From the NCBI GenBank assembly GCA_910890315.1, contig CAJVGD010000005.1, forward strand, positions 62,001 to 126,000: a stretch of DNA of 64,000 nucleotides, given 5' to 3'. How positions within the stretch are numbered: position 1 is the stretch's first letter; every line of letters starts with the position of its first letter. The notes beneath the pieces were generated by a model. That model was not told the origin of the DNA, made no database searches, and was given only the letters and a program-made list of their open reading frames with translations. A program made the position numbers and the translations under genes. Shown here piece after piece: positions 33,018 through 63,468 of this stretch. This DNA comes from Serendipita indica DSM 11827. Lineage: Eukaryota > Basidiomycota > Agaricomycetes > Sebacinales > Serendipitaceae.

Positions 33018-36000
33018 ATGAGTCGAAATACCGATTCCGAGGAAGATCTGAGGCTTCTTTCACTAGGTAGGTTCTGTTGGCTCTCTTTGGTTCCAACTTG
33101 TTCATCGTTCCCACACAAGATGGTGGAGATGTCCGCTGCGTGTCCCAGCTTTGGATCCTTCGAGAGTATATGTCCCGTCTAAGCTCGGATTCTGGACGAG
33201 AAGTCTTGCCATACGAACACTTTCATCTCATAACTGCCGTGGGGCCAGCAAGGTGAGGTCGCGTTGTCCGAAATAAGACTTTTCTAAAGGCAACAGCGCC
33301 ATAGCTGTCTTTATAGGCGTTTTGAAGATCTCCATAGATGACTCCATCGACCTCTTCACACAAATTTGTCGTGACGTTTATCCCACGGGAGAGATTGGAC
33401 CCCAACCTCGCTCCAACATTCTTCGAAGTGCCATTGAGAGTGCACTAGCTAGCAAAGGAATTGCTCCTAGCACCCTATTAACCCAAGTTACGGACACAAA
33501 CGTGTAAGCCAAGTCACGGCTCGCGCTAAACATGGTGATTTACGGTTTTTACAGTGTGCTTGGCTATGTTTCTGCCACTAATATCGGAACATGGAGGGCC
33601 TTTCGTAATTACACAAGTCGCCATCACGCATACGAACCGACTATTATCGAAGCCATTTGCGCCTGTTGGGCTATGCCGCCTCGTTTCCAAGCTTTCACTG
33701 TTGGTAAAGAGATAGAAAAGTTGGAGGTTATCAGTGCGTCCGCTGCCTTTCCAAACCCGGCGCCGCAAGCGATTCAAGAGGCCAGTGAACTCTATGGTCC
33801 CGAGAGACGTGTCTGTCTACTGCTTAGTCTTGGATACGGTGGATCTATGCGTCAAAATGTGGGTGGAGACGACAAGCTGGTCCAAGCAGAGGTCACCGCC
33901 CATGAACTTGAACGACGCTATGGACCGACAGGCGTATATTACAGGCTCAGTGTTATTCCGTCTCCTGCCCTTCCAGAATATGTATCTCAGGAGACTCTTG
34001 GCATTATTTCGGCTCACACATCCGATTACCTGCTCAATCCAGCCACTGATCGCGCACTTGACCAAGTGGTCACGACTTCATCCCGCAAGAGCCGGTTCAC
34101 TCTCAAGGGTCTCGGTAAGCTATTCGCTTTCTTGTCGATTGGTCACTCATTCTTCATGCAGCCCAAGTCACTGCACCACCAAAGGTGTCATTCAGTGGAC
34201 TTCCACCGTTGTCGCCTTATTATGTTCAACGTGATACCCCCATGAACCGCATGGTAGCTTCCTTTCTCGGTGCGGAAGCGGAGGGTTGTCAAAGAGTTCA
34301 GATCCTGACGGGCATGGGGGGATCGGGGAAAACGCAACTTGTGATCTCTTTTATTCGCGAACACGGTGAACGGTACGCAAAAAGGTAGCCAGCTATTGTC
34401 CACTTAATCGCCTTAGTTTTCGCAACGTATTGTTCGTCGACGCATCATCCGCAAAGACTATCGAGACTGGCCTTGTCGCCCGACTCAAGGCCATTGACAA
34501 GTCCTTCCAAGGAGCCGACCTCGACAGCGCATTAACGGCACTCGCCCAACCTAATGATATTCTCACTACCCATTGGTGTATCATTTTCGACAACGCTGAC
34601 GACCCAAAGCTTGATATAAGCAACTTCTTTCCGGTCTGCGACCACGGAGCAATAATTATTACCAGTCGTAACGCTCAGCTCGAATCCATATCCCCTAACG
34701 ATCATATACCGTTGGAGGTCATGACCAGGGAGGAGGCTTGCAACGCACTATTATTCTCCGCGATCGGTCCCAAGGAAAATTGGCGACCTCACCATCGACA
34801 ACTGGCGCTCAATATCGTCAAGGAATTTGATTACCTCCCGATCGCCGTCATTCAGGCAGGATGTTATATTCGGAAACACAAATGCTTGGACACCTACCTG
34901 AGCCGACTGGAAGCGAGCCGCTCAGAGATGTTGAAGCACGCATCTATGCAGCGCGACAAACTTCGGTACAGCCACAGCGTATACGCTGCGTTCGATATAT
35001 CCCTCGCGTCCTTGTCGGAGCGCGCTCTTGGCCTCTTATCCATTCTGTCCTACTACGATTATACCGGATTTCCGCGCTCCGTACTCGCGCTTGCCGCCGC
35101 AAAAGACTTCACGCATGAAGAATACAGGCTAATGGATAGAGAAAAAGATTTTGAAGAGGCCATTGCACTCCTCCGCCAGATTTTCACCCCGCATGACAAG
35201 CTAGAAGACGTCGAGTTGGATCGTCTCGTTGACGAGCTTCAGCAATCCTCATTAATTTCCCTCGTAACATTCTATTCGGAGATCAAGCTTCGCTTCCACC
35301 CACTGATACACGCTTGGGCATATGATAGGCAGAGCGATGAGGAGAAGAAGAAGTACCACGACGCCGCATTGAGACTGATCACCTGTGTGGTGGATGGCAA
35401 CGACGGGATAGATGTCGAGTCAGAGCTCGGCCCTCATGCACGTCGCTTTATTCAGGAGATGACCAAGCTTCATGTCAACGACCAAAGTGCCCTCGTTGAC
35501 ATCTGGGAGACCGAGCCGAGGGATCCGCTCAAACTCAAAATCTTCGAAGATATCTACCAAACAGTACGAGCGTCTCACGGTGACTCAGATTTACGCACCA
35601 GCGAAGCCCACCTTGCGTACTGCTCGTGGTATGCCGACGAGACATTTGACTTTGCGAAAGCTGAGGATATCGCTCGGCAAGAATATGAGCTGCGGAAGGT
35701 TATATGTGGTCCGCAGACTGCGCCAACTGCCAGAGCAATGGTTGTGTTGGCCAGACGCATAGCGTTTACCAAGACACGGAGGAATGAAGTTCTGGATCTG
35801 CTTCATAAAGCGCTCGAGATTCAAAAGGAAATACTCGGCCCTAACCATATCGACACTCAAACTACGATGTGTGTGCTTGCTATACTGTTACACAGGAATC
35901 CAGCCGAGTATGAAGAAGCGACTCTGCTCTTGGAGCAACTCCTTGCAACACGTACTTCCCTTTTAGGTGCCGACCACCCAAAAACCCTGGCTATTGAGGA

Positions 36001-37198
36001 TCTACTGATCGATTGCTACGCTGAAATCGGAGACGAAGCGCAAGAAAAGCTCCATGAGCTGCTAAGCGTTCGCCATAGTCGTTATATCAGCTCTTCCACT
36101 GACAGCATAGCGGTCCTTACCTTCCAAGGTCACATGTACCAACTGCAGGGACAATATGAGGAAGCTGAAGTGGCGTACCGTGAAGTTATTGAAAATATTC
36201 GAGCTATATTTGGGGATCTATCGTCCCGTAACCTGGGCGTTGTCAAGGCACTCGCGGAGCTTCTGGAGGAGACGAGAAAGTTTACCGAGTTGGAAGAATT
36301 ACTGCGTCAATATGTTATACTGGACTACGATTTTCATGGCGCAGCCAGGGATCATATGATTTCTCTGGCGACAAAACTCGGGGAGCACCTGCTTAAATCA
36401 GAACGCGCTGCAGAAGCACTCCCCATCCTTAGATCTGGATATAGTATGGCTTTGAACTCCTACGGGAAGTCAGGGTTCGGTATCTCCTCACACCGTCTAC
36501 GTCTCGCGGAATGTCTGGTCCTGCTACAGCAATATACCGAAGCAGAGACTCTCATTCGAGAACAGTTACACGATTGGCATCTTATGGAACTGAGCACAAA
36601 CTTGGCTAAAGTTTATCCATATGTGCTACAGGTTCAATGCCTCTTCATGCAAAACAAGTATGCCGAAGGGGAGGCGTTACTGAGGGAGGCATACACCAAG
36701 AATAAGAATAGCCTTGCAGCAAGCAAGTTTTATTCTTGCTCTACGCTCTGGTATCTAATTTATACTCTCTACAAAAAGGGCCATAGGCAACGCTATATGC
36801 CGTTCATTCAAGATATGCTCCAAATGTATGAGAGCAATGAGGACGACATTGACATCGTGGTTTTGACACTGCTCTTTACGTCCGCCTTCCTCCTCGAGCA
36901 GCAAAAACAGTTCGCTGCAGCTGAGGATATACTGAGGACTCGGGATACGAAGTGTAAGGAGATCTTCGGCGTAGAGAGTCCTCAATACGTATTTGAACGA
37001 GGCGTACTGGCGACGTTTCTCTTCCACCAACGGCGATTTGCCGAGTCGAGGTCGATCCGGGAGGACCAATTGAGAAGATTCATTGAACTGGATGACGAGT
37101 CGTGCGCGGAGGATGTCAAAGCGAAGCTGCGAGAGATCGAGGAGGCACTCAAAGACGAGAATCTAGACTCTGAGTGGTTAATTATTAGTAACTTTTGA
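33018..37198 (+). CDS. pseudo-patatin/NB-ARC/TPR NLR-like protein, copy A (whole)
   Basis: Exons 33018-33066, 33120-33252, 33297-33503, 33555-34114, 34162-34372 and 34417-37198 give 1313 residues. Domain order: a patatin-like domain (about residues 10-330), NB-ARC (about 345-620; P-loop GMGGSGKTQ, Walker B WCIIFDNADD, IIITSRN, LPIAVIQAG) and a long TPR region to the end. The patatin part keeps the LSLDGG entry and the fold's late motif CLLLSLGYG. The nucleophile elbow GxSxGG reads AVGPAS, with Gly at the Ser position, and the DGG catalytic Asp region reads ISASAAFPNP, with Ser. It is therefore probably not a lipase. By family, NLR-like proteins of this build act in fungal recognition or cell-death signalling; that is inference for this gene. 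Confidence 0.85.
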
Positions 37199-37503
37199 AC
37201 AAAGGGTTCGGTTTTACATCTTCATCACCGAATTCGAGCCCTAGAGGAGAATCCTGACCGAATTCCCACTCGCGAGGGAGGGCCTTGTCAGCCCAAGGTG
37301 CATCAGGCGTGGAATTGACAAAGTTTTTAATAGAGACCTTGCTTTATTGTTCATCTTGATTAGTCTGTCTGCCATCGCGCCTCGACGACCGCCTAAGCTG
37401 GGTTCAAGTTGTGCAATTGCCATACTCGAAGCCGACTTGAGGGCTATACAACTAATAATTCCCTCATTTGGCCCAGGAAATATTTCTTCTCAGAGGCATG
37501 AGG
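37199..37503. other. duplicated 3' flank of copy A
   Basis: About 300 bases that resemble the flank after copy B (about 42050-42340); the stretch around TGCCATACTCGAAGC is shared in slightly changed form. It belongs to the duplicated unit rather than being a gene. Confidence 0.5.
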
Positions 37504-37720: not shown

Positions 37721-37869
37721 AAATATTCTGAGGAGAGCAACAAAAAGGCGCCGACAGCACACAAATAAGTAGATTGGGGGACATTGCGGAAGGAAGCAAT
37801 CGTTGAGCCCGTCTGCCAAATACGGACTTTGACGAGTTCCTCCTCCGTGGAATACTCTAACAATTCGGA

Positions 37870-40800
37870 ATGAGGCGGCTAGTTGATTTTGATGAAGATC
37901 TGAGAGTTCTCTCATTAGGTGGGTTTTTGTTGCCTGCTTTGGTTCGACCTCACTTATCGTTTCCGCACAAGATGGAGGAGACGCCCGCTGCACTTCACAA
38001 CTTTTCATCCTTCGAGAGTATATATCTCGTCTAGGCTCAGATTCTGGACGGGAAGTCTTGCCATACGAGCACTTTCATCTCATAACGGCCGTGGGACCAG
38101 CAGGGTAGGATTCCTTTCATTGAAAATGGTTCTTACTGAGGTCACTAGTGCTATAGTTGCCTTTATTGGTGCTTTGAAGATGTCTATAGACGACACTATC
38201 GGCCTCTTCGCACAAATTTGTCTCGACGTTTATCCCACGAGAGAGATTGGGTCCCAACCTCGCTCCGACGTTCTTTGAAGTGCTATTGAGAGTGCACTAG
38301 TGAGCAAAGGAGTTGCTCCTAGCACCCTATTAAGCCAATTTACGGGTACAAATGTGTAAGCTGAGTCACGCTTGCGCTAACACTGGTGATTTACGTTGTT
38401 ACAGTGTGCTTGGCTATGTTTCTGCCACTAATATCGGAACATGGAGGGCTTTTCATAATTATACGGCGCGCCATCATGCGTATGACCCTACAATTATCGA
38501 AGCCATTTGCGCTTGCTGGGCTATGCCTCCGCATTTCGAGGGTTTCAGTGTCGGTACGGAGATTGAGAAGTCGAAGGTCATTAGCGCAGCCCCTGCCTTT
38601 CCAAACCCGGCGCTTCAAGCGATACAAGAGGCCAGTTACCTCTACGGTCCCGAGACACGTGTCTGTCTGCTGTTAAGTCTTGGATACGGTGGATCTATGC
38701 GCCAACATGTGGGCGGAGACGACAAGCTGGTCCGAGCAGAGGTCACTGCTCATGAGCTTGAACGACGGTGGGGGACGACCGGCCTATATTACAGGCTCAG
38801 TGTTATTCCATCTATCTCCGCTTTAGAATCTACTACGCAGGAGACTCTTGGGAGCATTTCGGCTCATACGTCTGACTATCTGCTCAATCCAGTCACCGAT
38901 CGAGTGCTCGACCAAGTAGCCAAGGCTTCATGTCGCAATCGTCGGTTCACGCTCAGAGGTCTCGGTAAACTACCTATTTTCTCGTCGAATAATTTCTCAT
39001 GGTTTATGCAGCTCAAGTTACTGCACCACCCAAGGTCTCGTTCAGCGGCCTTCCACCGTTGTCCCCGTATTATGTTCAACGTGATATACCAATGAACCAC
39101 ATGGTCGTATCGCTTCTCGGCTCTGAAGTGGATGAGCGTCAACGAGTTCTCACCCTGACGGGCATGGGCGGCTCCGGAAAGACTCAAATGGTCATTGCAT
39201 TTATTCGTGAACATGGAGACTGGTGAGTGAGGAAACTATGCACAATCCCCTCCTTAGATCACATAGTTTTCAGAATGTTTTATTTGTCGACGCGTCATCC
39301 GAACAGACTATTGAGACAGGCCTGGTCACACGACTCAGATCCATTGACAAGTCATTCCAAGGAGCTGATCTCACGAGCGCATTGGAAGCGCTTGCTCAGC
39401 CAAACGAAATCATCACAACTAAGTGGTGTATCGTTTTCGACAACGCCGACGATCCAAAGGTCAACATAACCGAGTTCTTTCCCCTGTGTGACCATGGAGC
39501 GATTATTATCACCAGCCGTAACGCCCAACTCGAGTCTATCTCTCCTAACGATACTATTACGTTGGAGGTTATGACTAAAGATGAGGCTTGCGAAGTACTA
39601 TTCTCTTCAATTGGTATCAAGGACAGTTGGCGACCTCACCATCGACAACTGGCGCTCGATATCGTCAAGGAGTTTGAGTATCTCCCAATCGCCGTCGTTC
39701 AAGCTGGATGTTACATTCGGAAATACAAATGCTTGGACACGTACCTTAGACGACTGGAAGCGAGTCGTTCCGATCTGTTGAAGCATACATCCATGCAGCG
39801 GGACAAACTTCGGTACAAGCATAGCGTATACGCGGCGTTCGATATATCCCTCACGTCCCTGTCGGGGCGGGCTCGGCCTCTTATCCATCCTCTCCTATTA
39901 CGATTATACCGGCCTCCCTCTTTCTGTGATCAGACTCGCTGCATCCAAAGAATTCATGCACGAAGAGTACAAGCTAATGGATCGAGGTCACGACTTTCAG
40001 GAGGCTGTCAATCTCCTCCGCCTGATCATCACCCCTAAAGGCAAGTTCGACGAGGTTGAGGTCGACAGTATCATCGAAGAACTTCAGCAGTCCTCGCTGG
40101 TTTCCCTCGTACCATTGGAGTCAGATGTCAAGCTTCGCTTCCATCTATTGATCCATGCTTGGGCATACGATCGGCAGAACGATGAGGAGAGGAAGAAATA
40201 TCGTGATGCAGCATTGAGACTACTCACTTCTCTTGTGGACGGGGATGATGGGGTATATATAGACTCAGACCTAGAACCACATGCGCGTCGCTTCATCGAG
40301 GAGATAACAATGCTGCATGTCAATGACCAGAGCTCTCTGGTTGAAGTCTGGTTGACCAAACCAAAGGATCAGGTTAAGCTCAAAGTTCTTGAAGATATCT
40401 ACCAAACGGTACGGGCAGCCTACGGTGATTCAGATCTGCGAACCAGTACTGCCCACCTCGTTCTCTGCGTAATGGGCTTCAGGGAAACACTTGATACGGC
40501 ACGAGCCGAGGCTATTGCTCGGCAAGAATACGAGCTCAGGAAGGCGATCAGTGGTCCCCGGACCCTGGCAACTACCGAAGCAATGTTTCTCCTCGCCTGC
40601 TTCATCGACTTTTCTTTTGCCAGGAAAGAAGAGGCTATGGAGCTCTTCCACACCACTCTGGAGATCCAGCAAGAGACGCTTGGCCCAGATCACCTAGACA
40701 CCATAAAGACGATGGATATGCTTGCCACCTCCCTAATACGCGCAGACCACGGCCTAGGTGGATACGAAGAAGCGTCTATACTCCTCGAGAAACTCGTTGT

Positions 40801-42012
40801 GGCTCGTTCCACGCATTGGGGAGTCGATAGCCCAGAAACGCTGAGATTAGTATATCAGCTCCTCGAATGTTATTCCGCAAAGGGAGATTCAAAACAAGAA
40901 AAACTCCAAACGCTGTTGGAGCATTGTAAAAGTCTCTATGGCGGCACGTCTTCCAATAACATGGCCGTCCTCGCCCTGAAAGGACGTATGTACCAACTTC
41001 AAGGTCTATACGAGAAGGCTGAAGATGTATACCGGGAGCTCATCGAGACTGGCCGTGTTACATTTGGCGATTTTTCACCGCGAAATCTGAATGCGGTTCA
41101 GATGCTCGCAGAGCTTCTCCAGAAGACGGGAAAGCACGTGGAAGTGGAGGACCTGCTACGTCAGTACGTCCGCCTAGGCCACAATCTGGACGGCGTGGCA
41201 GGGGAGCATATGCTTTCGCTATTGACTCTGCTGGGAGAGGCAAAACTGAGGCAAGGACACCCTGATGAAGCACTTCCTATCCTCGAAACTGCGTATAATG
41301 CACCCATCGACCGTTATGGAGATTTCTGGCTCAGAGTCTCCAGGAAACGTCAACTTCTTGCCGAATGTCTCGTCCAGCAGAAGCAGTATATGGAAGCCGA
41401 GTCACTCATTCGAGAAGAACTGAAATACTCTCACCAGATGGAAACCAATACCAGCGTGTCTATGACCAGTCCATCTGCGCTGTTAGGCATATGTCTCTTC
41501 GAGCAAACACAGTACAGCGAGGCAGAGTCAATACTCAAGGAAGCCTATCACAAGGGGAAAGAGGCTTCCCGGGCTAAACACGCGGAATCTTGCCGTACAC
41601 TTTGTTACCTAATTCTCAGTCTTGAGAAAACGGGGGCGCTGGAGCAAGCTAAGTCTCTCATCCAAGATATGTTTGAGCTCTACGAGCATATTGAGGGAGA
41701 CTTGAACACCCCCGTCCTGTGGGTACTCTCCACGTTCGCCGAGATCCTCGAGCGGCAAAAAAGGGTCACTGAGGCCGAAATAGTATGTAGATGTCGTGAC
41801 GAAAAAGTGAAAGAGTTTTCGGGATAGGACACCGTCGGTATGTGGTCGAAAGAGGTAGGCTAGCAACATTTCTCTTCAATCACCAACGATATGCCGAGTC
41901 AAAGAAGATTCGGGAGGGGCAATTAAGGAGATATATTGATTTGGGCGATGATCAGGGTCGGGTCATTGTCGAAGAGGAGCTGCGAGAGATCGAGGGGGCA
42001 ATCAAATCCTAG
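37870..42012 (+). pseudogene. pseudo-patatin/NB-ARC/TPR NLR-like gene, copy B (decayed)
   Basis: Same domain order, intron positions and flanks as copy A. The patatin-like start (LDGGDARCTSQLFILREY) has the same dead elbow (AVGPAG at the GxSxGG position) and VISAAPAFPNP in place of the Asp motif. Three lesions are visible against copy A: a CGA to TGA change at about 38276 in the patatin part, two bases lost at about 39873 after SLTSLSGRA in the NB-ARC region, and a frame change near 41825 that cuts off the last TPR segment, which continues (YVVERGRLATFLFNHQRYAE) to TAG at 42010-42012. NB-ARC motifs (GMGGSGKTQ, WCIVFDNADD) are still readable. Probably non-functional. Confidence 0.82.
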
Positions 42013-43612: not shown

Positions 43613-44708
43613 CTAAACGATGAGATATTTATCTCTCCTTGTCTTGACTGGCGCCTCGCGCGTCGCTCCATATTTTCGCAAATTGTACTCGATGAGCGCA
43701 CGCATGTTCTCCTCACCAAGATGTCCCCACACATCTCTTTCGATGAGATCTTCCATCCAATGTTCGTCGTTTGTGACCACGACTTCGGTGCCAATGGGAA
43801 GAGCGGGTCCGAGATGAGTCGGAACCGTACAAGGAAGCTTCATGTAATCCAAAGTGGTGAGGAGGGACTCGAACTTGGCTTCCATGATCGGGCGAGACTT
43901 GCTTCCGTCCAGGCAGAGGTTGAGGAGGATGAGGATCCAGTCTGGGTAGAGCGGATTCGTTAAAGTACGACTGATATGGATCGGGTACTCTGCAGAGATA
44001 CCTGAAAATTCGCCAGCGAGGCAGACGCGAAAGTAGCCTATGCCCTTGAGATCTACATTGGGGCGATTTCGAGGACAATGGGCCGCGTTGGACGGTTTGA
44101 TGGTGATAGAATATGGCCAGAGAACGGGTGGATCCTCGGAGAGGTCTCTGATACGGAGGGAGAAGACAACGACATGTTGGTCTCTCTTTGCTTTTGCATA
44201 GACGAGCGCATGCACGGCGGCCCAGGTCTAGAGAATGATTAGAGTTGGAAATTTTAGGGAATGCATGTACATGCCAACGGCGTCAAATAAACCACGGTCC
44301 AGTGGTCGAGAATTCTGATGATATGCCGAGCAAGGAGCGGCCCGTGGGTCCAGGCTGATGCGTCGGGTAAACAAAACCGTTCACAATCTCTACGATGAAT
44401 AGGCCAATGCTCTTTTTGGCACTCCTTACTCTGCTTCCTCGTCAGTGTAGCTACACCTATAGGTCTAAACTCCGTACGCAGTAAAAGACGGGCATCACGC
44501 CGTTTTTATAACATCTACTGCACTGCTTGAGTGTTATAGTTGCGCTTGGAACGGCATGGCACTTGTTACACGTCTTCCAAGGCCGGGTATTGGTATCGAC
44601 CTCTCTCAAGCGTTTCTTCAAAGGAAGAGGCAACTTTTGAAAGATGTTTGGTCCTGGAAGTGTGAATTCTGTGATATTTATATCTTTATCGGGGTATATG
44701 TCTGTCAT
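43613..44708 (-). CDS. MYND-type zinc-finger gene 2
   Basis: The most complete of the three. Exon 1 (44708-44478) encodes MTDIYPDKDINITEFTLPG and the finger start CNKCHAVPSATITLKQCSRC...FYC. Exon 2 (44430-about 44271) supplies SKECQKEHWPIHRRDCERFC, so all the finger's Cys and His are present, and a short helix (ARHIIRILDHW). Exon 3 (44227-43613) is the conserved C-terminal domain: AVHALVYAKAKRDQHVVVFS, EDPPVLWPYSI, WILILLNLCLDGSKSRP, WMEDLIERDVWGHLGEENM. The join of exons 2 and 3 is one base out of phase with the splice sites I can see, so either that exon boundary or the gene's integrity is uncertain. Function unknown. Confidence 0.65.
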
Positions 44709-44919
44709 ATCGAAATGTGGGCGGGATCAAGAGTGGTCAGGCTCCGTCATTAGCTCCGTCAATATTGTCAACCAAGGTTTTTGAGTACGGTAGTCTATTT
44801 ATAACAACTAAGCTTTTAGAATTATACAATGTCTATGCACAGTAGGCAACGCTCACCGTGGAGCAGAGCTGTCGAGAAGATAGTGTTCAAGAAACAGAGA
44901 AGTCAACGAAGAGCATCAC

Positions 44920-46010: not shown

Positions 46011-46335
46011 GCTTGAGCGTGGACGGGATCAAGAATGGTCAGGCTCCGGTGACATTCAATGTCAAAGATTAATAAATTATATCTACATTTGCCACATCTG
46101 CGCTGGTAGAATGTGGTAAATGTGCTTTGTCAGCAAACACCAGGAGCCGTTTTTGTGAATCGGCGATGGAGCAGCACTTTGACCCGCTCTTCTTCCATCC
46201 CCAGTCTCCACTGTTGCGATTAGCAGTTCAGACGGCGTGCAGAGTTGTGCTCCGACCTGAACTGTACAGTTGTTTACATTTCACCCGTCCGTCGCCGCTC
46301 ATTTACGCCTTTGTAGCACGTAGAACGCACTCAAA
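46011..46335. other. divergent promoter region
   Basis: 325 bases between MYND gene 3 (-) and RAD16 (+). It must carry the RAD16 promoter; no specific site can be named. Confidence 0.4.
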
Positions 46336-49300
46336 ATGCCACCTAAGCGATCAAAAGGACTCCCACGACGCACCTCGTTGAATGTAGATGCTTCACCAGA
46401 CTCGAGCAGCGGCGGCGACGTCGACAGCCCATCAAAATCCAAGGGAAAAGGGTCTGCATTGTCGAATAGACCCACGATGACGCGTCGTAGCACACGTAAC
46501 AGCCTCAGTAGCTCAAAGGTACGTCTAGTGCACAAAAAATGGAGTGGCAAACTTCGCCGCCGGTCGTTTGCTCGCTGACTTTTCGTCCCTCGCTGCTGCA
46601 CCTACAGATCAATCTCAACGGAAAACGCGCTCGAGAGACGGACGACAACAAAGCCGGGACTGAAGACGGTGCCTCTGCTTCAGACGGCGACGACGAGGAG
46701 AACACAAAGACTTTGAATGGAACAACGACCAGAAAACCAAGTGGAAAGATTCCCTATGCTGCTCTCAAGCGCACCGCAAGCCAGGTGTGGCCCGTTGTCA
46801 TTCTCCAAACACCCCTCTCACGTTTCTTCCAGGCCACGTCCATCACAGAAAGCACTCCAGACACGCCAGTCTCTTCACGTCGCGCTACCTGGGCAAGTAT
46901 TCTCTGTGGACACAATTCCTTTGACTAAACAATACCCAAACAGACCTCACTCGCGCGTACTCGATCTCGTAGGACTACGATAACATCGACACCCGCAACG
47001 TCTGAGCCCCCACACACCTCTGACGGCGAAATCCTGACAGACGACTCGCTCCAGTATAAAGACATCTCGTCAGAAGAGTCGAGCGGCTCCGAATTCGAAG
47101 ACTCTGCCTCGGAATCTGACGCATCCCAACTCGATCTCGAAGCCATGCACATCTCTACTGACGACGAAAATAGCATGGCCATTCTCGCTGCCAGCATCCA
47201 ACAGCGTACAAAGGGCGGTCGGCAAAATGGTTTCAAGGCGAAGAAGGGCAAGAGTGTACAAGGTATTCGAAATGGGATGAACGTTGGGGATGCGGATGAT
47301 ACAGACGAGGAGATGCTTAATGCGGCCATCCGAGAGAGTGTGGCCACGGCCGCCGCAGAGGATCGCGCAAAGTATTCGTCTGCTGGTGCTGGTCCCTCTG
47401 CGACTCGTAGTGATCGTATGTCGATGAGCGTGTCGCCAAAAAAGGGCAAGGGAAAGGCCGTCGCGACTGCGGACGCGAGTGACTCTGACAATCTCCCGTT
47501 GGCGTCCAAAGCGACCAAGGGTAAAGGGAAGGGAGCTCAGCAGGACATTATTGTCTTGGACTCTTCGGACGATGACGCTGTCTCTGGCACAGGGCTTGAT
47601 GCCATGGACATTGATGCTGCTATGGAGCTTCTCGATGAGGACGAGGAAGAAGATAGATTTGCTCAAGTACAGGCTCAGGCGGAAGCGGATAGAATCTCTA
47701 GAGCAATCCTAAAGAAGGAAGAGGCGGCAGAGAGAAAGCGACTCGGACGTCGACTTACCTTTGTGAGTTGTTCCTCCTCTTTACATTCCTGTTTCTTATT
47801 AATCCGGGTCTACATAGGCGGAAAAGGCGACAATTGCGCTCTATCGTCATCATCCGGAACTCAAGACGGTTTGGGCCGATTTGGAAAAACTTGAAATTCT
47901 CAAGGCGGTTCCGGGTGTCCAGCCCGCGAGTCTCAAGCTCAAACTTTTACCGTTCCAGTTGGAAAGTTTGACGTGGATGCGTCGACAAGAGGAGAATACC
48001 GAGTTTTCTTGGAATGGTGGTCTGTTGGCAGATGAGATGGTGAGTGCGCCAACGTCACAGAGTGTCAACATTGACCTTGTTCGGTAGGGTCTCGGTAAGA
48101 CGATCCAGACACTGGGCTTGCTTGTCAGCGATCCACGCAAGCCCAACCTTGTCGTTGCGTACGTTTCGAGGCTGCATTGAGAAGACAGGAATACTAATGT
48201 TCTGCGAATAGGCCGACGGTGGCTATTATGCAATGGAAGAACGAGATTGATCAGCATACGAGTGGGCTAGCTGTCAATGTATTCCATGGTGCATCCCGAA
48301 CCAAGGATATCGAGGCGCTCAAAAAGTGTGATATCGTGCTTACAACGTATGCGGTTTTGGAGAGTGTCTATCGGTATGTCCTCTTCGTGGATATCCATCG
48401 TCTTCTCATTCGCTTTAGAAAGCAACAGTATGGGTTCAAACGCAAGGGTCAGCTCGTCAAGGAGAGGAGTATTTTGCATGAGATTACTTGGGCGAGGATC
48501 ATTGTACGTTCTTTCCCAACCCGCTTTTGACTCCTCATCGATCCCTCTCGTTCTCCAGCTCGATGAAGCGCATAATATCAAAGAACGCTCGACCAGTACG
48601 GCCAAGGCCGCATTCGAACTCGATGGAAAGTTTCGTTGGTGTCTCTCTGGCACGCCGCTCCAAAACCGTGTTGGAGAGTTGTACAGCCTGGTTCGTTTCC
48701 TCGGTGGAGATCCATTCAGCTATTACTTTTGTAAGTCGATCCGCTGTAGCTTGGCTGATGCTCATCTTTGTTTAGGTAAAAAGTGCCCATGCAAGTCGTT
48801 ACATTGGAAGTTTACGGATAAACGAAGCTGCGATGGTGGGTTTATAATCTTATCCACGATGTTGTTCTAACAAGCTGCGTGCGATAGAATGCAAGCATCC
48901 TCCCAGTCTGGTAAGCAGGCTTCCATACATCCCGAGAAATATCTAACTGGTACCACAGCACGTATGTTTATGGAATAATGAGATCCTCGGCCCGATTCAG
49001 AAGCACGGGTTCACTGGACCTGGACAAGACGCGTTCCGCAAACTGCGCATCTTGCTCGACAGGATGATGCTGCGCCGCACCAAGGTTTGTCGCTGTCACC
49101 GAGAATGCATTCTTCGCTCATACGAGAAATACTGTAGCTCGAGCGTGCCGACGATCTTGGGTTGCCGCCTCGTACGGTCATTGTCCGCCGTGACTATTTC
49201 AGCCCGGAAGAAAAAGAACTCTACTTGTCTCTGTTCTCGGACGCGAAGCGAAAGTTTTCCACCTATGTCGACGCTGGGACTGTGCTCAACAGTACGTCTT

Positions 49301-50606
49301 AACTAGGTATCTGTTACGCATAGCTGATTTCCATAGATTACTCGAACATCTTTACTCTCATTACTCGTATGCGACAAATGGTGTGTACACTTGTTCTCCA
49401 AGGTCTCCCAACTGAGCCTCCATAGGCGTGCCATCCAGACCTCGTTCTCAAGAGCAAGAAGAATGCCGAGTTTTCTGGTGATATCGTCGAGGCAACGGTT
49501 TGCCGCTTGTGCAACGACATTGCGGAGGATGCGATCGAGTCGAAGTGCCATCATGTCTTTGACCGCGAGTGCATACGTCAGTACCTCGAGGCGTCGGCTG
49601 GAATAACTGTACGCTTCTTCATAAGATTCGGCGTGCTTGTAGTTGACTATGTTTGCAGCCCGAGTGTCCCGTGTGCCATTTGCCCCTGACTATCGACCTC
49701 GAGGCAGAGGCGATCGAGATTTCCGAGGAAAATGTCAACAAGGCTCGGCAGGGAATTCTTGGCCGACTCGACTTGGAGGGGTGGCGCTCTTCCTCCAAGA
49801 TTGAAGCACTCGTAGAGGAGTTATCCAAGCTGCGCGATCAAGATAGGACGATCAAAAGCATTGTTTTTAGTCAATTGTTCGTGATCGTAGGATGTGGTGT
49901 ACGTTTGTTGACGTGATGGCAGCGTCAACTTTTTGGACTTGATCGCTTTCCGCCTCAAAAAGGCAGGCTTCAACGTACGTTGGTGACATTGCTAGTTCTC
50001 GTTGCTGAATTCTCTCTAGATTTGTCGTTTGGAGGGAACGATGACACCTCAAGCGCGAGACTTGACCATCAAACACTTTAGTATGTCTCGAACGAATGCG
50101 ACGGCTACTGCTGATGGTCTTAGTGACAAACGTCGATGTGACAGTCTTCTTGGTATCCCTCAAAGCTGGAGGCGTGGCATTAAATCTTACTGGTATGCCG
50201 CACCCCCATGATGAGTGCTACTCTGACCGTTTCTTAGAGGCCTCGCGTGTTTATCTCATGGATAGTTGGTGGGTGAGTACAATACCTCATTCCTGCTCGA
50301 GGTCTTTATTTACACTTCGTCAAGAATCCCGCAGTAGAGTATCAAGCGATGGACCGTATCCATCGAATTGGGCAGCACCGACCTATTCAAGCTATCAAGC
50401 TGGTCATTGAGGATAGCATCGAAAGTCGTATTGTGCAGCTTCAGGAGAAGAAGAGCGCCATGGTGGAGGCGACGCTATCAACAGATGATTCGGCCATGGG
50501 AAGGTTGACACCTGAAGATTTGAGCTTCCTTTTCCGAGTGCGTATTGTTAGCTTTCCATTTGTATTTCTGATTGTTGGCATCCTGCTGATTGTTTGCCAG
50601 CTTTGA
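46336..50606 (+). CDS. RAD16: RAD16-type SNF2/RING helicase, many exons
   Basis: A long low-complexity N-terminus (Ser/Lys/Asp/Glu-rich, about 45% of the protein) precedes the Snf2 ATPase: [15 protein letters not shown], then [17 protein letters not shown] (Walker A, split by an intron), [11 protein letters not shown] and [12 protein letters not shown] (DEAH box). The Rad16 hallmark [20 protein letters not shown] follows, then LRRTK, a C3HC4 RING finger inserted between the helicase lobes ([18 protein letters not shown]...CPVC), and the C-terminal helicase motifs ([27 protein letters not shown]). Yeast Rad16 pairs with Rad7 in global-genome nucleotide-excision repair and in a ubiquitin ligase. 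One intron has a GC donor (46893-46943). The last exon is CTTTGA, giving FLFRL. It looks complete. Confidence 0.9.
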
Positions 50607-50870: not shown

Positions 50871-52060
50871 ATGACCCGATTTCTCTCCATAGGTAGCATG
50901 CTGGACGTGTAGTCATTAGTTGCTCACACATTTGATCAGACAGCGGCCCCAACGCCCTGCCAGCATTGATGATTCTTAGAGAGATTATGGAGCGATACAA
51001 GTTTGATCATCCTCCGAAACCGAAACCAAAGAAGGGCAGGAAGGAAGAAGACGAAGACGAAGACGAAGAAACGCTCCCTTGCGACATCTTCAGTATGACC
51101 ATTGGTTCTGGACACGGTGGGTGGGTATAAATAATACTTTGAATCTCTCTGGCCGATCCAACGTTTGATGATAGGCTCATTGCGATCCTTCTCGGCAAAC
51201 TACGGATGTCTGTGGACGCTGCTCTTGAGGCCTATGGCTCATTACTCGAGACTCTTCCTATAAAGCCAGCTCGGAGCGAGGCGGAGAAGGTACAAAACGC
51301 AAAGAAGCTAGAAGGAGAGCTCCGGAGAATCCTTTACTTTAAAGGGATCACCGCCAACGATATGATGCGGGAAGGTACGAGGACTACAGGAGGCCATAAA
51401 GTGTGAGAATTCAGGCAGCTTCTGGCTGATGTGAATCGCTAATTATAAGCAGTGTGGTCTGCGCTGGAGTGCCTATAAGTATGGGCTTCCCCTACTACAT
51501 CCGCAGCTATCCCCATGACGGGGTACCGACGCCGCCATGTACGATTCTGCAAGCCGCAATGGCATGCATGGCAGACCCGAGGTTGTACCCAGCCGTTACC
51601 ATCGGGGACTCTTATCATACTGCAACCCTCGTCGAAGCACCAGCGAGATTCGCCAATCCTACATGGCTCCTCGTGAGCGAGGCAAAGCTCGTATATGGTG
51701 CAAAAGGAATAGTACGCCTCATTCTCAGTCTGGGCGGTGGTGACTCGGAGTTAGCCACAATCAAGACATATATGGATCCGTCGAGTCGGACGCCATACGA
51801 AGTAGAGTCCGGACAGATTCACCAGGACTTGTTTCCTCGGGTGAAACATGAGGATGTTTATTATCGGCTTCAACCCCGAGGACACTTTGGATGGTCAGAG
51901 GACATGGCGACTATCCTAGCTCGCGTTAGCGGTTTCTTACAGGACCTAGGGTTCAAGATTACTTAGATTCGGTTGTAAGCGCCATGGACGCGGCGTGGAC
52001 ACAACACGCAATGATGCTCGAGGAAATCAGTAAGTGCGATCGTTACGATGACAGCACAGA
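50871..52060 (+). pseudogene. pseudo-patatin copy I (patatin-only, truncated)
   Basis: Exon 1 (50871-50892, MTRFLSI) joins to IDSGPNALPALMILREIMERY. The patatin-like domain follows: MTIGSGHGG at the nucleophile elbow (Gly at the Ser place), LIAILLGKLRM, and TLVEAPARFANP where the catalytic Asp should be (Glu). A low-complexity insert of Lys/Asp/Glu (EDEDEDEET) is unique to this copy. The frame closes at 51964, and related sequence (VVSAMDAAWTQHAMML) continues in another frame to about 52030. There is no NB-ARC or TPR part: the next copy begins about 570 bases on. It starts 265 bases after the RAD16 stop. Confidence 0.7.
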
Positions 52061-52602
52061 CCCCCTGACGGCTTTACCATGGATTCAGCATTAGGTATCC
52101 ACTGAGTACTCTCTAGTGGCCGTAATGGGGAATTACACAAAAATTTACTACCGCGCAATCCCAATCTTATCTCCTGCTATCATTTGTACCCATTGGTTTA
52201 CAGACCCAATTTCGCCTGTCTAAAAATCTTTTGAGCATAGTTTATCTTTGCCAAAGACCTCAGGAGCGGGAGGAATATGACCGGTAGAACACCTCCACTT
52301 GCAAAAGTAGACTCGCAAGAATACTCGCATACAGTTTATTTACCAGCCTGTCTATTTTAGGTACATAGCAGCAGGTGAGCGGCAGGGGACCAAATCTAAG
52401 TCGCTTTAATCCACGACGCTCAAAAGGCTATACTCAAGAAATGCCACACTGTGCGAGAAGCTCCACCAGGGATCGATTAGGAGTCCGAAGGCTGTGCGTA
52501 GTCGCGGATTTTAAAGGTTATGAAGGCGATAGAACAGCCGCCCACACCTTGAACTGTACCACGACCAAGACAAACATTGTTTGATCATCAAAGTGATCGA
52601 TA
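52061..52602. other. duplicated upstream region of copy II
   Basis: About 540 bases that closely match 56094-56685 upstream of copy III, especially 52540-52602 (TTGAACTGTACCACGACCAA against TTGAACTGCACCACGACCAA). It is the promoter side of the duplicated unit. Confidence 0.6.
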
Positions 52603-55600
52603 ATGGTCCATCTTCTATCAATTGGCAAGTAAGATGCACGAATTCCGGACACATACTGACTGCGACTGGTCACAGATGGCGGCTCCAACGCCATGCCGGC
52701 ACTAATGCTCCTTTCAGAGGTTATGGAACGATACAAGTTTGATCATCCTCCAAAAGAGGACGGGAATACTAGAGAAACGCTGCCTTGCGACATCTTTAGC
52801 ATGACCATCGGTTCTGGACATGGCGGGTAGGTGTAGACAATGCTTTGTCCTCATTGAGTCAATCTAATGCTCATTGGCAGACTTGTTGCAATTCTACTTG
52901 GCAAGCTGCGGATGCCTGTGGACGCAGCGCTTGAGGCGTATTGTTCATTATTAGCGGCGCTTCCGACGAGTCCAGCACAGAGTGACGAAGAGAGATCACA
53001 GAATGCGACTAGACTAGAGGAAGAGCTCCGGAGGATCCTAAATTTTGAAGGGATTACCCCCGATGACATGATGCAAACGAATACGAGGAAAACCGAATCT
53101 CACAGAGTGTGAGTACTTATTTTGGTTTTAATTAACGACTTATTAGTTATTTTTAGTGTCGTTTGCACCGGGCAAACCACGAATATGTCCAATCCTTATT
53201 ATATTCGCAGTTATCCAAGTCGCGGTGTACAGACGGCACCATGTACAATCTTGCAAGCCGCAATGGCATGCATGGCAGACCCTACGTTCTACCCACCGGT
53301 TACTCTTGGCAAGTTCCACCGAAGAGTTACCCTCGTCGAAGCGCCAGCGACGTTCGCCAACCCTACGAAGCTCCTCTTAAGCGAGGCCGAAGTCATCCAT
53401 ACTGAAAGCTGGAGCGTGCGACTCATTCTCAGTTTAGGTTGTGGCGAGTCCGAGCTACTTACGGTTGAAGAATACCACGGAGGGCCGCGTCGACTACAGT
53501 ACGGAGTCGAATCAGAACGCGTTCATCAAGATTTGCTCTCTCGGTTGAAAGAGACGCGTATATACTATCGATTCCATCCGCGAGGACAATTCGGATTGTC
53601 GGAGGACCCCGCCGATATCCAGGCTCGCGTCGACGGTTTCTTGCAGGACGTAGATATCAGCAGCTCTGTGGATGCTGTTGTGCGTACTATGGAAAAAGGG
53701 TGGCCAAAACAAGCAATCGCCATTGGAGATATCAGTGAGTCTTACCCTTAAACCTGGGCTGAGGTTGACAACGTCAAAATAGACTCGGTGCGAGTTCTGG
53801 ATATGGGACTTCCCCCACGGCCATCGGTCGTGCCAAACTTTGTTGGAAGGGAGGACGTTCTAGCTCAACTTCGATCCCACCATCTCGGAGGACAATTTTC
53901 ACCAGAACAACTCCCACGGATCAGCGTGCTCGCTGGCATAGGGGGCTCTGGAAAGACACAATGTGCACTTAGATTCGCCCTCGAGTACGAAAGAAGGTGC
54001 GTAGGGATTATCTGGATGGAAATGATAGCTTATAAGCGGTTATCAGTGTGCAAAATGCAAGCGTCTACTTCGTAGATGCACGCTCCGAGGCGGCCCTCCG
54101 ACAAGGGCTCCAGAATATTGTTTACTCGATGAAGTCTGGGCTCTCGCAGAGATGGTCAACCTCGATACTAGCATCATTACCGGATTGGATGGTCATTCTG
54201 GACAACGCCGACGATCCTTCCCTGAAAGTCCTTGATTACCTGCCTAGCTATGGTAGGGGGCACATTATTATTACCACTCGCAACTCGGCATACGCCAACC
54301 TCTCCTGCAATTTCCAGACACTCGAGGCTCTGGAGCCAGAGTCCGCAGTCGAACTTCTCTTATCCTCTTCCGGATATGATGGATCCTCAGACAACAAACA
54401 GTCCGCGCTCGCCATTGTGAATGCCCTTGGGCGCCTTCCCCTAGCCATCGCACATGCGGCTGGATATATACGCCTCCACCAGTGTCTCAAATCGTACCTG
54501 GATGTCTACAATGAGAGTCGGCAGCAGCTACTGAGGACAAAAACGATGGCGATGTTTGAGCACTATGACCTTTCGGTGGCGTCGACTATCCAGATGTCGC
54601 TAGACAAGCTCCCCGCCCACACTCAGGCGCTTCTATACCTGCTGGCCGAGTTCCATAATACCGACATCCCATTCGATGTTTTCAAAATAGCAGCAAAGAG
54701 GCAGTTCGATGGGCCCGATCTTCAAATTGATATCCCTGTCGATGAGAATGTGCGATGCGATAGTGAAGCACTCTCAAGCATTCTCTGTCAGAATGGCAAG
54801 TGGTCAGAAGCTTATTTTAATGAGCTCATAGAACCATGCTTGAACTACTCGCTTCTGCGAGTTACAAGAAGCGGAGAGACGAGGATGTTCTCAATGCATA
54901 TCTTGGTTCAGACCTGGATCCAGTCGATTCACGGCACCCCCGAGAGGCAGCGACTTTTCGTTCATCTCCTTTCCTCCTCTATCTTTCGTCACTCATGGTC
55001 TCAAATCCATCTTCACCGACTTATTGCGCCTCATATAATCCAACGAGTTCTCATTGACCAAGTCGCATGGTCCAACAAGTGGGCGCTCGCATTCGCGGTG
55101 GACGAAGTCGGGAACTCTACGTGGTCGCAGAAACAGCTCCACGACGTCCTAGCTTATGCAGAAGCAACCTTTGGTAGCGACTCGCCGATCACTCTCGCAA
55201 TTATGACCGACCTCGGGACAAGTTATGACCGATCTGGTTCGTATCGCAATGAGACGGCTCTCACCCTCCACCAGCGAGTACTCGCCGCTCGGCTCAAACT
55301 TCGCGGCGAGAGTGACATTGAAACGCTGTCAGCAATGTCCAATGTGGCCAGCTCGCTGGTAGACATGTGGAGAAATGACGAGGCTGAATCTCTTTATCTA
55401 AAGATAATCGAGCTTCTAAAGGCAACAGTCGGTCCGGATCACCCAGAAGTCCTCAAGGCCGAAAGCCGTTTGGCTACGATTCTTTTCCGGAAAGGCGATT
55501 ACCAAGTCAGCCTATACAGGAAGGTGACTATGAGCCAGAGGTACGATACTCAAGCGAGGATTACGCTGGCGGAAAAACTACGTGTTTTAGAGAATGTTGC

Positions 55601-56093
55601 AACCTCACTCCATATTCTTGGCCGATACTCAGACGCCCTCAGCCTATTCTACAAACTCTGGAGCATGATAAATCGACTTCTTGGGCCATACCATTCTACC
55701 TCTATACGCGTAAGCCTCTCTACGGCCGGAACATTGTGCCAGCTTGGGAGGTTCAGCGAAGCAACAAAGCGCCTTGAGCTTGATTTCAAGCATCTTCATC
55801 CGTCTTCTGATGGAGATGATTCAAGCAAGCTTGCCATTCATCCAGAGGACAGACGCAATACACCAGAGGGATTGAGTGCACAGCGCTTGATGTGCTTCGT
55901 CCTCTTCTGCGAGGGGAATCATGCTGAAGCGGAAGAAAGATACGCTACCACCGTAGCGGCTCATCTGGAAACACTTGGACCGGACCATCCGCATACGCAA
56001 TGGGTTCAGAAGCCATTGGCCGAATGGAAAGACCCTACTTTTATCGAGTACGCGATACGTTTGCCTACACCGGTTGCAGAAGAGACCTCTTAG
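52603..56093 (+). CDS. pseudo-patatin/NB-ARC/TPR NLR-like protein, copy II (whole)
   Basis: Exons 52603-52624, 52676-52826, 52881-53108, 53157-53734, 53783-53996 and 54047-56093 give 1079 residues. The first intron begins GCAAGT (GC-AG type), which yields the conserved LLSIDGGSNAMPALM start. Patatin-like domain about residues 1-320: elbow MTIGSGHGG (Gly at the nucleophile place) and TLVEAPATFANP (Glu at the Asp place). NB-ARC about 330-600: GREDVLAQL, P-loop AGIGGSGKTQC, WMVILDNADDPSL, IIITTRNSAYA, LPLAIAHAAGYI. A TPR region follows with LGPDHP-type repeats, ending HTQWVQKPLAEW. Together with copy A it is one of two whole genes of this type here. Likely NLR-like signalling protein, by family. 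Confidence 0.85.
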
Positions 56094-56685
56094 ATCTCCA
56101 CCATGTTCCGCTCCTGAACCTTGTCGAGTTCTACTCTTATAACTTCGTATTTTCCGAATATCGGTCTTGTCTCACGTCTAGTTATATTGGCTTAGAAGCG
56201 ACATCGTAAATAATGTACCTACCTCTATGCCATGTAACTTCATTCTCCTAAATCTCTCAGACAGGGAATGATGTACTTCTTCAACCGCACTAATTATTAC
56301 CATGTCGTGACATTATTGCACCTCGTTACCTTTATCTACTTGGGTATTGAGCCCGCCTAAAGACCCCAATGGGGAGGGGGGGGTTGAGGAATATGAACCG
56401 TAGTCGTGTATTGCAGGTCCACTTACAAAATTAGACACCCATAAATGCGGAGCATACTATTTTATCACCTAGACGTCTCTTTTATGTGTATAGCAGGTGA
56501 GACCCTTGCAAGGCTATGCTCAATGAATGCTGCACTGTGCGAGAAGCTCTACTAGTGATTAAATATGAGTACAAGGGATGCATATGGATGCGGATTTTAG
56601 AGGTTATGAAGGCGATAGAACAGCCGCCCACACCTTGAACTGCACCACGACCAAGATACACATTGCTTGATCAAAGTGGTCGATA
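56094..56685. other. duplicated upstream region of copy III
   Basis: About 590 bases matching 52061-52602; see copy II. Contains a run GGGGAGGGGGGGG near 56372. No gene. Confidence 0.55.
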
Positions 56686-59600
56686 ATGGTCCATCTTCTA
56701 TCAATTGGCAAGTAAGATGCACGAATTCCGGACACATACTGACGGCGACTGGTCACAGATGGCGGCTCCAACGCCTTGCCGGCACTAATGCTCCTTTCAG
56801 AGGTTATGGAACGATACAAGTTTGATCATCCTCCAAACGAGGACGGGACTACTAAAGAAACGCTGCCTTGTGACATCTTTAGCATGACCATCGGTTCCGG
56901 ACATGGCGGGTAGGTGTAGACAATACTTTGTCCTCACCGAGTCGATTTAATGCTCATTGGTAGACTTGTTGCGATTCTACTTGGCAAGCTGCGGATGCCT
57001 GTGGACGCAGCGCTTGAGGCGTATTGTTCATTATTAGTGGCGCTTCCGACGAGTCCAGCACAGAGCGACGAAGAGAGATCACAGAATGCGACTAGACTAG
57101 AGGAAGAGCTCCGGAGGATCCTAAATTTTGAAGGGATTACCCCCGATGACATGATGCAAACGAATACGAGGAAGACCGAATCTCACAGAGTGTGAGTACT
57201 TATTTTGGTTTTAATTAACGACTTATTAGTTATTTTTAGTGTCGTTTGCACCGGGCAAACCACGAATATGTCCAATCCTTATTATATTCGCAGTTATCCA
57301 AGTCGCGGTGTACAGACGGCACCATGTACAATCTTGCAAGCCGCAATGGCATGCATGGCAGACCCCACGTTATATCCACCAGTTACATTCGGAAAGTTCC
57401 ACCGAAGAGTTACCCTCATTGAAGCGCCAGCGAGATTCGCTAATCCTACAAAGCTCCTCTTACGCGAGGCTGAAATCATCTATACCGAAAACGGGGGCGT
57501 GCGACTCATTCTCAGCCTAGGCTGTGGTGATCCGGAGCTACTTACGGTTGAAGAATACCATGGAGGACCGGGTCGACTACAGTACGGTGTCGAATCGGAA
57601 CAGGTTCATCAAGATTTACTCTCTCGACTGAAAGACACGCGCATTTATTATCGACTCCACCCGCGAGGGCAATTCGGATTGTCCGAGGACCCCGCCGATA
57701 TCCAGGCTCGCGTTGGTGGTTTCCTGCAGGATGTAGATATCAGCAGCTCTGTGGATGCTGTTGTGCGTACTATCGACGAAGGGTGGACACAACATGCGAT
57801 TGCCCTCGGGGATATCAGTAAGTTAAAGTTTGGACCATTTATATGGATATTAATGTCCTCAACGTAGACTCGGTACGGATTTTGGATATGGGACTTCCCC
57901 CACGGCCATCGGTCGTACCAAACTTTCTTGGAAGGGAGGATGTTCTAGCCAAACTTCGATCCCATCATCTGGGTGGCCATTTTGCGCCAGAGCAGCTCCC
58001 AAGAATTAGCGTACTTGCTGGTATAGGAGGGTCTGGAAAGACGCAGTGTGCACTAAAATTCGCCCTTGAGTACGAAAGAAGGTGTAAGCATTTTTGGATG
58101 CACCCACGACTTATAGTCAACCAGTGTGCCAAATGCAATGGTCTACTTTGTAGATGCACGTTCCGAGGAAGCCTTACAACAGGGGCTCCAGAATATTGTC
58201 TACTCAATGAAGTCCGGGCTCTCGCAGAGATGGTCGAGCTCGATTCTGACTTCCCTCGAGGCGTGGATGGTCATACTGGATAATGCCGACGATCCTTCCC
58301 TCAAAGTGCTTGAATACTTCCCGAGATATGGAAATGGAAATATTATCATCACCACTCGCAATTCGGCATACGCAAATCTCACCTGCAATTTTCAGGCACT
58401 CGAGGCTCTAGAATCAGAGTCCGCGGTCGAACTTCTCTTGTCCTCCTCTGGCTATGAGAGATCCTCAGCAACAAAGAGTCCGCGCTCGCCATTATCAATG
58501 CCCTTGGGCGCCTCCCCTTAGCCATCGCGCATGCGGCCGGCTATATACGACTTCATCAGTGTCTCAGGACATATCTGGATATCTATAATGAAAGCCGGCG
58601 GCAGCTACTGAGGACAAAAACGATGGCCATGTTTGAGTACTACGAGCTTTCGGTGGCGTCGACTATCCAGATGTCGCTAGACAAGCTCCCTGTTCCCACA
58701 CAATCTCTCCTACGCCTGCTTGCCGAGTTTCACAATACCGACATCCCGTTCGACGTTTTCAAAATAGCAGCAAAGAGGCGGTTCAGTGCACCTGATCTTC
58801 AAGTCGATATCCCGGTCGGCGATAATGTGCAACGTGATAGCGATGCACTATTAAATATTCTCTGTGGAGACGGCAAGTGGTCAGAAGCTCATTTTAATGA
58901 GCTCATAGAGCCATGCTTGAACTACTCGCTTCTGCGAGTTACAAGTAGCGGAGAGACGAGAGTTTTCTCGATGCATATCTTGGTTCAGAGCTGGATTCAG
59001 TCGATTCACGAAACCACTGAGCAACACCGACTCTTTGTTCGCCTCCTTTCCTCCTCCATCTCTCGTCAATCCTGGGCTCAAATTCATCTTCATCGACTCA
59101 TTGCACCTCATATAATCCAACGGGTCCTCATTGACCAAGTCGCATGGGCGGACAAGTGGGCGCTCGCATTCGCAATGGACGAAGTCGGGAACTCTACGTG
59201 GTCGCAGAAGCAGCTAAAAGAGGTTCTAGTGCATGCTGAGACGACTTTTGGCGATGAGTCTCCGATAACTCTCGCAATTATGACCGACCTTGGGACAAGT
59301 TATGACCGATCTGGTCCGTATCGCATTCAGACGGCTCTCACGCTCCACCAGCGAGTACTCGCTGCTCGACTCAAACTTCGCGGCGAGAAGGATATTGAGA
59401 CGCTATCAGCAATGTCCAATGTGGCCAGCTCGCTGGTAGACATGTGGAGAAATAACGAGGCTGAATCTCTTTACCTAAAGATAATCGAGCTTCTGACGGC
59501 GACAGTCGGTCCAGATCACCCAGACGTTCTCAGGGCCGAAAGCCGTCTGGCCACTATTCTCTTCCGGACTGGTAAGCGGCAACTTGGTTATTACCGCAAG

Positions 59601-60170
59601 GTCTCTATGCTTGAGAGGCTCGATGGGAAAGACACGGTCACGCAAATGGAGCAGTTACGCGGCATGGAGAACATTGGAACCTCACTCCATATTCTTGGCC
59701 GATACCCAGACGCACTCGAGTTATTCCGGCAACTCTCGAGCGTGATCAATCGACTTCTTGGGCCATATCATTCTACTTCTATACGCATAAAACTCTCTAC
59801 GGCTGGGACATTATGCCGGCTTGGGAGGTTCGGCGAGGCAACAGAGCACCTTGAACATGCTTTCAAGCGTCTTCATCCGTCTTCTGACGGAGACGAGTCG
59901 AGCGAGCTTGCTATTCGTCCAGAGGACAGACGCAATACTCCAGAGGGGTTGAGTGCACAGCGCTTGATGTGCTTCGTCCTCTTCTGCGCCGGAAATCATG
60001 CCGAAGCGGAAGAAAGATACGCTGCCACGGTAGAGGCTCATCTGAAAACACTAGGACCGGACCATCCGCATACGCAATGGGTTCAGAAGCCACTGGCTGA
60101 ATGGGAGGACCCTACTTTTATCGAGTACGCGATACGTAAGCCTGGTTCAGTTGCAGAGGATGCGTCTTAG
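56686..60170 (+). pseudogene. pseudo-patatin/NB-ARC/TPR NLR-like gene, copy III (one frameshift)
   Basis: A tandem copy of copy II, offset by about 4083 bases, with nearly identical 5' half, the same GC-AG first intron and the same dead elbow (MTIGSGHGG, LIEAPARFANP). The P-loop GIGGSGKTQC and WMVILDNADDPSL are present. At 58468/58469 one base is missing against copy II (TCCTCAGCAACAAA against TCCTCAGACAACAAA), so the frame closes soon after SSSGYERSS, between IIITTRN and the LPLAIAHAAGYI motif. The rest (from 58623, MAMFEYYELSVASTIQMSLD) is open to TAG at 60168-60170. This is a young lesion in an otherwise whole gene, or a sequence error. Confidence 0.8.

Positions 60171-60276: not shown

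Positions 60277-63468
<3,192 letters not shown>

Follow-up and report, generated by a model that had tools for sequence, protein, structure and literature searches.

The stretch analysed here, hereafter the window, comprises 64,000 nt of Serendipita indica DSM 11827 (assembly GCA_910890315.1, contig CAJVGD010000005.1, positions 62,001 to 126,000 of the forward strand; G+C approximately 50%), and its plus strand carries five patatin-type domains, which we call copies A, B, I, II and III. All five have glycine in place of the nucleophile serine, and the two whole genes among them encode NOD-like receptors (NLRs) in which the altered patatin is followed by NB-ARC and TPR parts. We placed exons manually by comparing the copies with one another, checking splice sites and phase; a spliced aligner of our own gave identical introns for A, B, I and II. 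In these spliced models the introns of the patatin parts measure 44–54 bp, are GT-AG or GC-AG and have phases common to all copies. The features are as follows.

33018..37198, plus strand: gene A, intact, six exons, 1313 aa, patatin/NB-ARC/TPR, spliced model without internal stop
33242..33244, plus strand: nucleophile position of A, GGG (Gly) in the elbow AVGPAS
33733..33735, plus strand: catalytic-Asp position of A, AGT (Ser)
37870..41827, plus strand: gene B, a broken A-type copy
50871..51966, plus strand: copy I, a II-type patatin part whose NB-ARC and TPR are lost
52603..56093, plus strand: gene II, intact, six exons, first intron GC-AG, 1079 aa, patatin/NB-ARC/TPR, no internal stop
52816..52818, plus strand: nucleophile position of II, GGA (Gly) in the elbow GSGHGG
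53338..53340, plus strand: catalytic-Asp position of II, GAA (Glu)
56686..60170, plus strand: gene III, a near copy of II with a single frameshift, in the NB-ARC part

A and II have the order N-terminal patatin, NB-ARC with P-loop, TPR, the same as in PLP-1 of Neurospora crassa (plp-1/sec-9; PMC12881547). Pfam matches the TPR in both; the NB-ARC of A scores 29.4 bits, above the cut-off of 23.5, and that of II scores 20.6 bits, below it, despite which its P-loop and Walker B are present. A preliminary description of this DNA, made from the letters alone, had the patatin domain whole in A and II, copy I stripped of NB-ARC and TPR, and both P-loop and Walker B kept in A, B, II and III. In our analysis neither A nor II has an internal stop, the nearest P-loop downstream of copy I, which has a frameshift near the end of its patatin domain, belongs to II, the P-loop is kept in all four genes, and Walker B is kept in A and II, as DNADD. 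B has a nonsense codon inside the patatin part and, measured against A, two frameshifts and two stops in total. II and III are 95% alike at the gene start (52587–52886 and 56670–56969) and 78–86% alike elsewhere, with a synonymous divergence (dS) of 0.22 for patatin and 0.63 for NB-ARC; because of these differences, the similarity at the gene start is probably due to gene conversion.

Patatin domains without the catalytic dyad

The nucleophile elbow reads AVGPAS in A, AVGPAG in B and GSGHGG in I, II and III, where p22, a catalytic patatin of the same genome, has GTSTGG. The motif around the catalytic Asp reads ISASAAFPNP in A, ISAAPAFPNP in B, VEAPARFANP in I, VEAPATFANP in II and IEAPARFANP in III, the Asp itself being replaced by Ser in A and B and by Glu in I, II and III. 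The oxyanion motif is eroded too, from DGGGIRG in p22 to DGGDVRC in A, DGGSNAM in II and DSGPNAL in I. When p22 was aligned with splicing directly to the DNA, Gly again lay opposite its Ser, and its Asp faced Ser in A and Glu in II, with scores of 207 for A against 51 for shuffled DNA and 176 for II against 34; because the result is the same, the assignment of Gly to the Ser position is independent of the multiple alignment. The spliced models of all five domains, and the direct alignment for A and II, thus agree with the replacements that the preliminary description had listed. Among 36 places in the genome that lack the Ser (dead places; see below), we chose 11 for the same alignment, and Gly occupied the Ser position in 10 (scores 96–414 against 32–58 for shuffled DNA); for p26 the alignment stopped short of that position, scoring 56 against 34, and its placement rests on the family alignment.

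The domain is nevertheless recognizable as a patatin by profile. Scores against PF01734 are 22.0 for A, 23.7 for II and 21.9 for III, all below the curated cut-off of 27.7 bits, and at E 0.1 Pfam finds nothing in copy I; across 11 distinct dead members, eight fall below the cut-off and three above it (p7 57.1, p8 59.4 and p20 31.6), and p22 scores 92.8. We found that a profile built from 12 dead members and free of catalytic rows matches nine distinct solved patatin-type sequences, among them CapV (9kej, E 7.9e-14; 8zr9, E 1.5e-13), patatin-17 (1oxw, 3.5e-6) and iPLA2beta (6aun, 5.2e-5); a profile of the four window rows alone matched the same chains weakly (E 0.14–0.25). These matches, together with p22 alignments of A and II scoring well over shuffled DNA, establish homology to known patatins across the domain. 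CapV and related bacterial patatin phospholipases are the best solved relatives of the family profile, but they are bacterial and have neither NB-ARC nor TPR, the matched chains being 364 aa long. By its deposited name CapV is catalytic. The profile Gly falls on the CapV elbow residue, which is Ser in 8zr9 and Ala in 9kej; the alignment to catalytic patatins that the preliminary description had proposed, here to p22 and CapV, therefore puts Gly on Ser, and in the case of p22 also Ser or Glu on Asp. A scan of the first 228 residues of II against bacterial and archaeal genome contigs, as a single protein and hence able to detect close relatives only, found no relative.

The Gly at the nucleophile position stands in 87.5% of 24 non-redundant dead rows. 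Twenty columns are conserved at 83% or more, and only in the Gly column does the dead-row letter depart from both catalytic rows (p21 and p22); the fold framework seems to be kept, since the remaining conserved columns (the N-P of the Asp loop, LSLGxG, RxY and others) are the same as in the catalytic pair. Such a framework would suit a domain that had given up hydrolysis and still held a phospholipid head group or acyl chain, anchoring an oligomer to the membrane; the erosion of the oxyanion motif counts against this, and we regard lipid binding as unlikely.

A dyad elsewhere in the domain had been named beforehand as the result that would overturn the loss. Among columns conserved at 60% or more in the 24 dead rows, the only catalytic-type letters absent from both catalytic rows are one Thr (67%) and one Asn (63%), and no relocated Ser-Asp dyad was found among these columns. 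The domain might still be an enzyme through another nucleophile or chemistry, for which nothing speaks directly; candidates would be the Ser at the last elbow place in A, a3 and p5 (AVGPAS, AVGTAS) and the Ser directly after the Gly in p7 (GTGSGG). In B, a1, a4 and a5, however, which are closely related to A and a3, that last place is Gly (AVGPAG), and the conserved columns yielded no new pair of catalytic-type residues, so that a surviving activity of this kind is highly improbable.

A genome-wide family of dead patatins

The genome searched measures 24.71 Mb, and a family search together with protein searches using II, A, p19, p7 and p22 found at least 39 patatin-like places, all counts being lower bounds. 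The nucleophile Ser is absent from 36 of the 39, replaced by Gly at 32, Glu at two (p6 and p24), Ala at one (a6) and Asp at one (p19). In the Asp column these 36 carry Ser (19), Gly (5), Glu (4), Asn (3), Thr (1), Ala (1), a stop (p14) and Asp (p18), with p27 unaligned there; p15 has Asp by pairwise alignment as against Ser by multiple alignment. Both residues are kept at two places, p21 and p22, and p25, a weak match excluded from the alignment, keeps the Ser in the elbow GTSCGS. The preliminary description had seen five copies; all five are confirmed, and the family is far larger than that.

A P-loop-type motif, which in p2 ends in GK with no T, lies 186–351 bases past the aligned patatin end at 28 of the 36 dead places, and none was found downstream of the three places that keep the Ser, over 1,576 to 2,616 bases read. 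Seen from the other side, 28 of the 89 loci matching the NB-ARC of A adjoin a dead patatin. Judged by these residues, the patatins of this NLR class in this genome are as a rule dead. The domain could be an integrated decoy or sensor, mimicking a lipase attacked by an invader’s effector or inhibitor and tripping the NLR when bound. A dead enzyme domain under selection would suit a bait, with nothing direct in its favour; the domain occupies the effector position of fungal NLRs and recurs as the usual N-terminus in a family of at least 28 genes, whereas plant integrated decoys are single sporadic insertions. We hold this possibility as a tentative one, on the unlikely side.

Another lipase-type class in the same genome offers an internal contrast. 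A DNA pattern for [AG]-H-S-L-G-G that is permissive in its Ser and Leu codons matches 46 times genome-wide, against 18 times for the reversed pattern; the forward pattern occurs 816–959 bases upstream and on the same strand at 15 of 61 patatin-less NB-ARC loci, and was not found 500–1,700 bases downstream of such loci. The one patatin-less NLR that we read (C12) has AHSLGG in a lipase-type domain before the NB-ARC P-loop, and no patatin was found in it; we take this domain to be SesB-like. The upstream matches at 15 loci and this gene indicate that another lipase-type NLR class keeps its elbow; going by these motifs, no NLR member found in the patatin class has retained it. The two classes are alike in placing a lipase-type domain before NB-ARC (one gene read, 15 loci by pattern) and differ in that the SesB-like one retains the [AG]HSLGG nucleophile elbow.

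Several members show further rearrangement. In p23 (L070, L077) and p26 (L071), on contig C18, the frame behind the dead patatin has a NACHT-like Walker B (VIDALEEC in p23) and no P-loop was found; patatin and nucleotide-binding part may both be dead there. Behind the dead patatin of p24 (L066, L078; contig C16) comes a TPR-like frame; no P-loop was found between the two, and the NB-ARC may have been deleted. For p28 (L073; contig C10), whose elbow is GTGTGG, no P-loop was found behind the patatin, and the frame there presumably encodes an F-box protein. Near-identical copies also occur: a1 (L039; contig C5, 2.3–3.4 kb) with a2 and a3 on the short contig C7 at 3–19 kb (L040, L041, L044), and p2 with p3, in opposite orientation, on contig C19 at 5.6 kb (L024) and 57 kb (L015, L025). 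Both sets would have arisen by recent duplication at contig ends or represent a second haplotype.

Common descent and purifying selection

We built a tree of 37 rows (38 aligned, p27 excluded) from which three motif stretches had been removed. It requires one change from Ser to another residue, joins p21 and p22 (100/96), and places the A-like genes in one clade (100/99) and the II-like genes in another (100/100; with p1–p3, 98/93). On this tree the Ser would have been lost once, before the A-like and II-like genes split, and A and II would share the loss by descent; convergent loss in the two groups is unnecessary. The argument in the preliminary description from two diverged subfamilies losing the same residues consequently falls away, since a common loss that precedes the split is no evidence of convergence.

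The ratio of nonsynonymous to synonymous divergence (dN/dS; Nei-Gojobori) was calculated for the patatin part in 16 pairs of copies within the genome and lies at 0.13–0.29 in 12 of them: the A-type pairs A-a5 (0.19), A-B (0.24), B-a5 (0.29), a1-a3 (0.19), a1-a4 (0.21) and a3-a4 (0.20); the II-type pairs II-III (0.18), I-II (0.21) and I-III (0.18); and p16-p17 (0.13), p10-p11 (0.21) and p12-p14 (0.24). The pair p11-p17 gives 0.10 near saturation (dS 3.0), and comparisons of A with a1, a3, a4, a6 and p5 and of p10 with p16 were unused because dS was saturated (A-a4 and p10-p16 being among the 16). Bootstrap intervals over codons are 0.17–0.33 for A-B, 0.13–0.28 for A-a5 and 0.11–0.28 for II-III, and the same three pairs give 0.11–0.13 in the NB-ARC parts and 0.08–0.28 in the TPR parts. 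Purifying selection acts on the patatin part, if somewhat less strongly than on the NB-ARC part.

These values oppose the view of the patatin part as a neutral relic, decaying and itself functionless. Breaks or truncation affect B, III and I, frameshifts or stops occur in a2, a5, p14 and p24 (in the first three within the patatin part), and p2-p3 gives 0.73, a value that we ascribe to different splicing of two near-identical models; in pairs that include B, III, I, a5, a2 or p14, part of the selection signal may thus be older than the breakage. The patatin frames are, however, open in a3-a4, p10-p11 and p16-p17, which are among the low values, and the TPR parts of the same genes span a comparable range, which leaves a relic very unlikely. 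An enzyme-type domain that lacks its catalytic residues and is kept by selection is a pseudoenzyme, and that is what we found. The preliminary description had suggested selection for a non-catalytic role: the selection is observed, and the role is likely, because the domain is patatin-like by profile, has lost the dyad and is under purifying selection.

A possible signalling role

The dead patatin is probably a binding or signalling part rather than an enzyme. We put at roughly 0.55 the probability that the family consists of NB-ARC/TPR NLRs whose patatin, a pseudoenzyme through a single loss, acts as a non-catalytic signalling domain. In the ancestor of the whole expanded family the nucleophile Ser would have changed to Gly, turning the N-terminal patatin into a pseudoenzyme once, after which the Asp and the oxyanion hole would have decayed differently in each branch. 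The TPR part would sense a ligand and the NB-ARC part oligomerize, and the clustered dead patatins would then pass the signal on through binding to a further effector, a second NLR or a membrane, with no hydrolysis. In plant immunity EDS1, PAD4 and SAG101 have a lipase fold that works without catalysis; theirs is a class-3 lipase of a different fold family, unfused to NB-ARC.

Several observations weigh against this reading. No P-loop was found downstream of eight of the 36 dead places (I, p8, p18, p23, p24, p26, p27 and p28) in 740 to 3,500 bases read, and the broken copies listed above belong here as well. Just two catalytic rows root the tree. Next to them, with moderate support (90/52), stand p8 and p28, both dead and with no P-loop found behind, and three rows (p15, p28 and p18) have long branches. 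A fold prediction for the last patatin exon of II, this one exon only, aligned with the exons of four paralogues, gave a predicted local distance difference test score of 31, too low for a usable model.

The dead patatins could instead act in trans on free catalytic patatins such as p21 and p22, with an oligomerized seed or scaffold recruiting or switching an active patatin. We consider this quite doubtful; were it true, an ancestral NLR with a catalytic patatin would have given rise to numerous dead-template sensors and a shared enzyme.

A signalling domain without catalysis would set these NLRs apart from PLP-1, whose cell death in N. crassa depends on patatin activity (PMC12881547). The S. 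indica dead family lacks both Ser and Asp, and the activity required in PLP-1 could therefore not be supplied by the same chemistry. In the open-licence papers cited, NB-ARC is the nucleotide-binding type of nearly all fungal patatin NLRs (PMC4986451, PMC12258605), patatin is listed as a phospholipase effector with a mean of 1.7 per species having one, and the highest NLR count, 274, is that of Piriformospora indica (both PMC4986451), whose 24.97-Mb genome has NB-ARC and TPR among its expanded domains (PMC3192844). Patatin NLRs or patatin het genes are treated in PMC12258605, PMC10197012 and PMC11138114. We found no inactive patatin NLR family described in the open-licence literature searched, which agrees with the novelty claimed for a pseudoenzyme subfamily. 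Fungal patatin NLRs have been described as enzyme-bearing and few per species; here at least 28 NB-ARC genes or remnants carry a patatin-derived domain, and by its residues none of those found is catalytic. Pfam coverage of basidiomycete NLR N-termini is 23% (PMC9815663), and families of this kind may go unnoticed within the unannotated remainder, because eight of the 11 dead members tested fall below the Pfam cut-off. If the pattern is general, an effector enzyme would have become the non-catalytic output domain of a whole receptor class, and what takes the place of the enzyme would become a testable question.

Elsewhere in the window, tandem repeats approximately 1,304 bases apart and 74–81% alike lie at 43710–46048, overlapping minus-strand frames that we take to resemble MYND-type zinc fingers. 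Frames at 30774–32303, 46512–50606 and 61948–62328 (the last on the minus strand) presumably encode a glutamate-decarboxylase-type enzyme, an SNF2-type helicase and actin, respectively.

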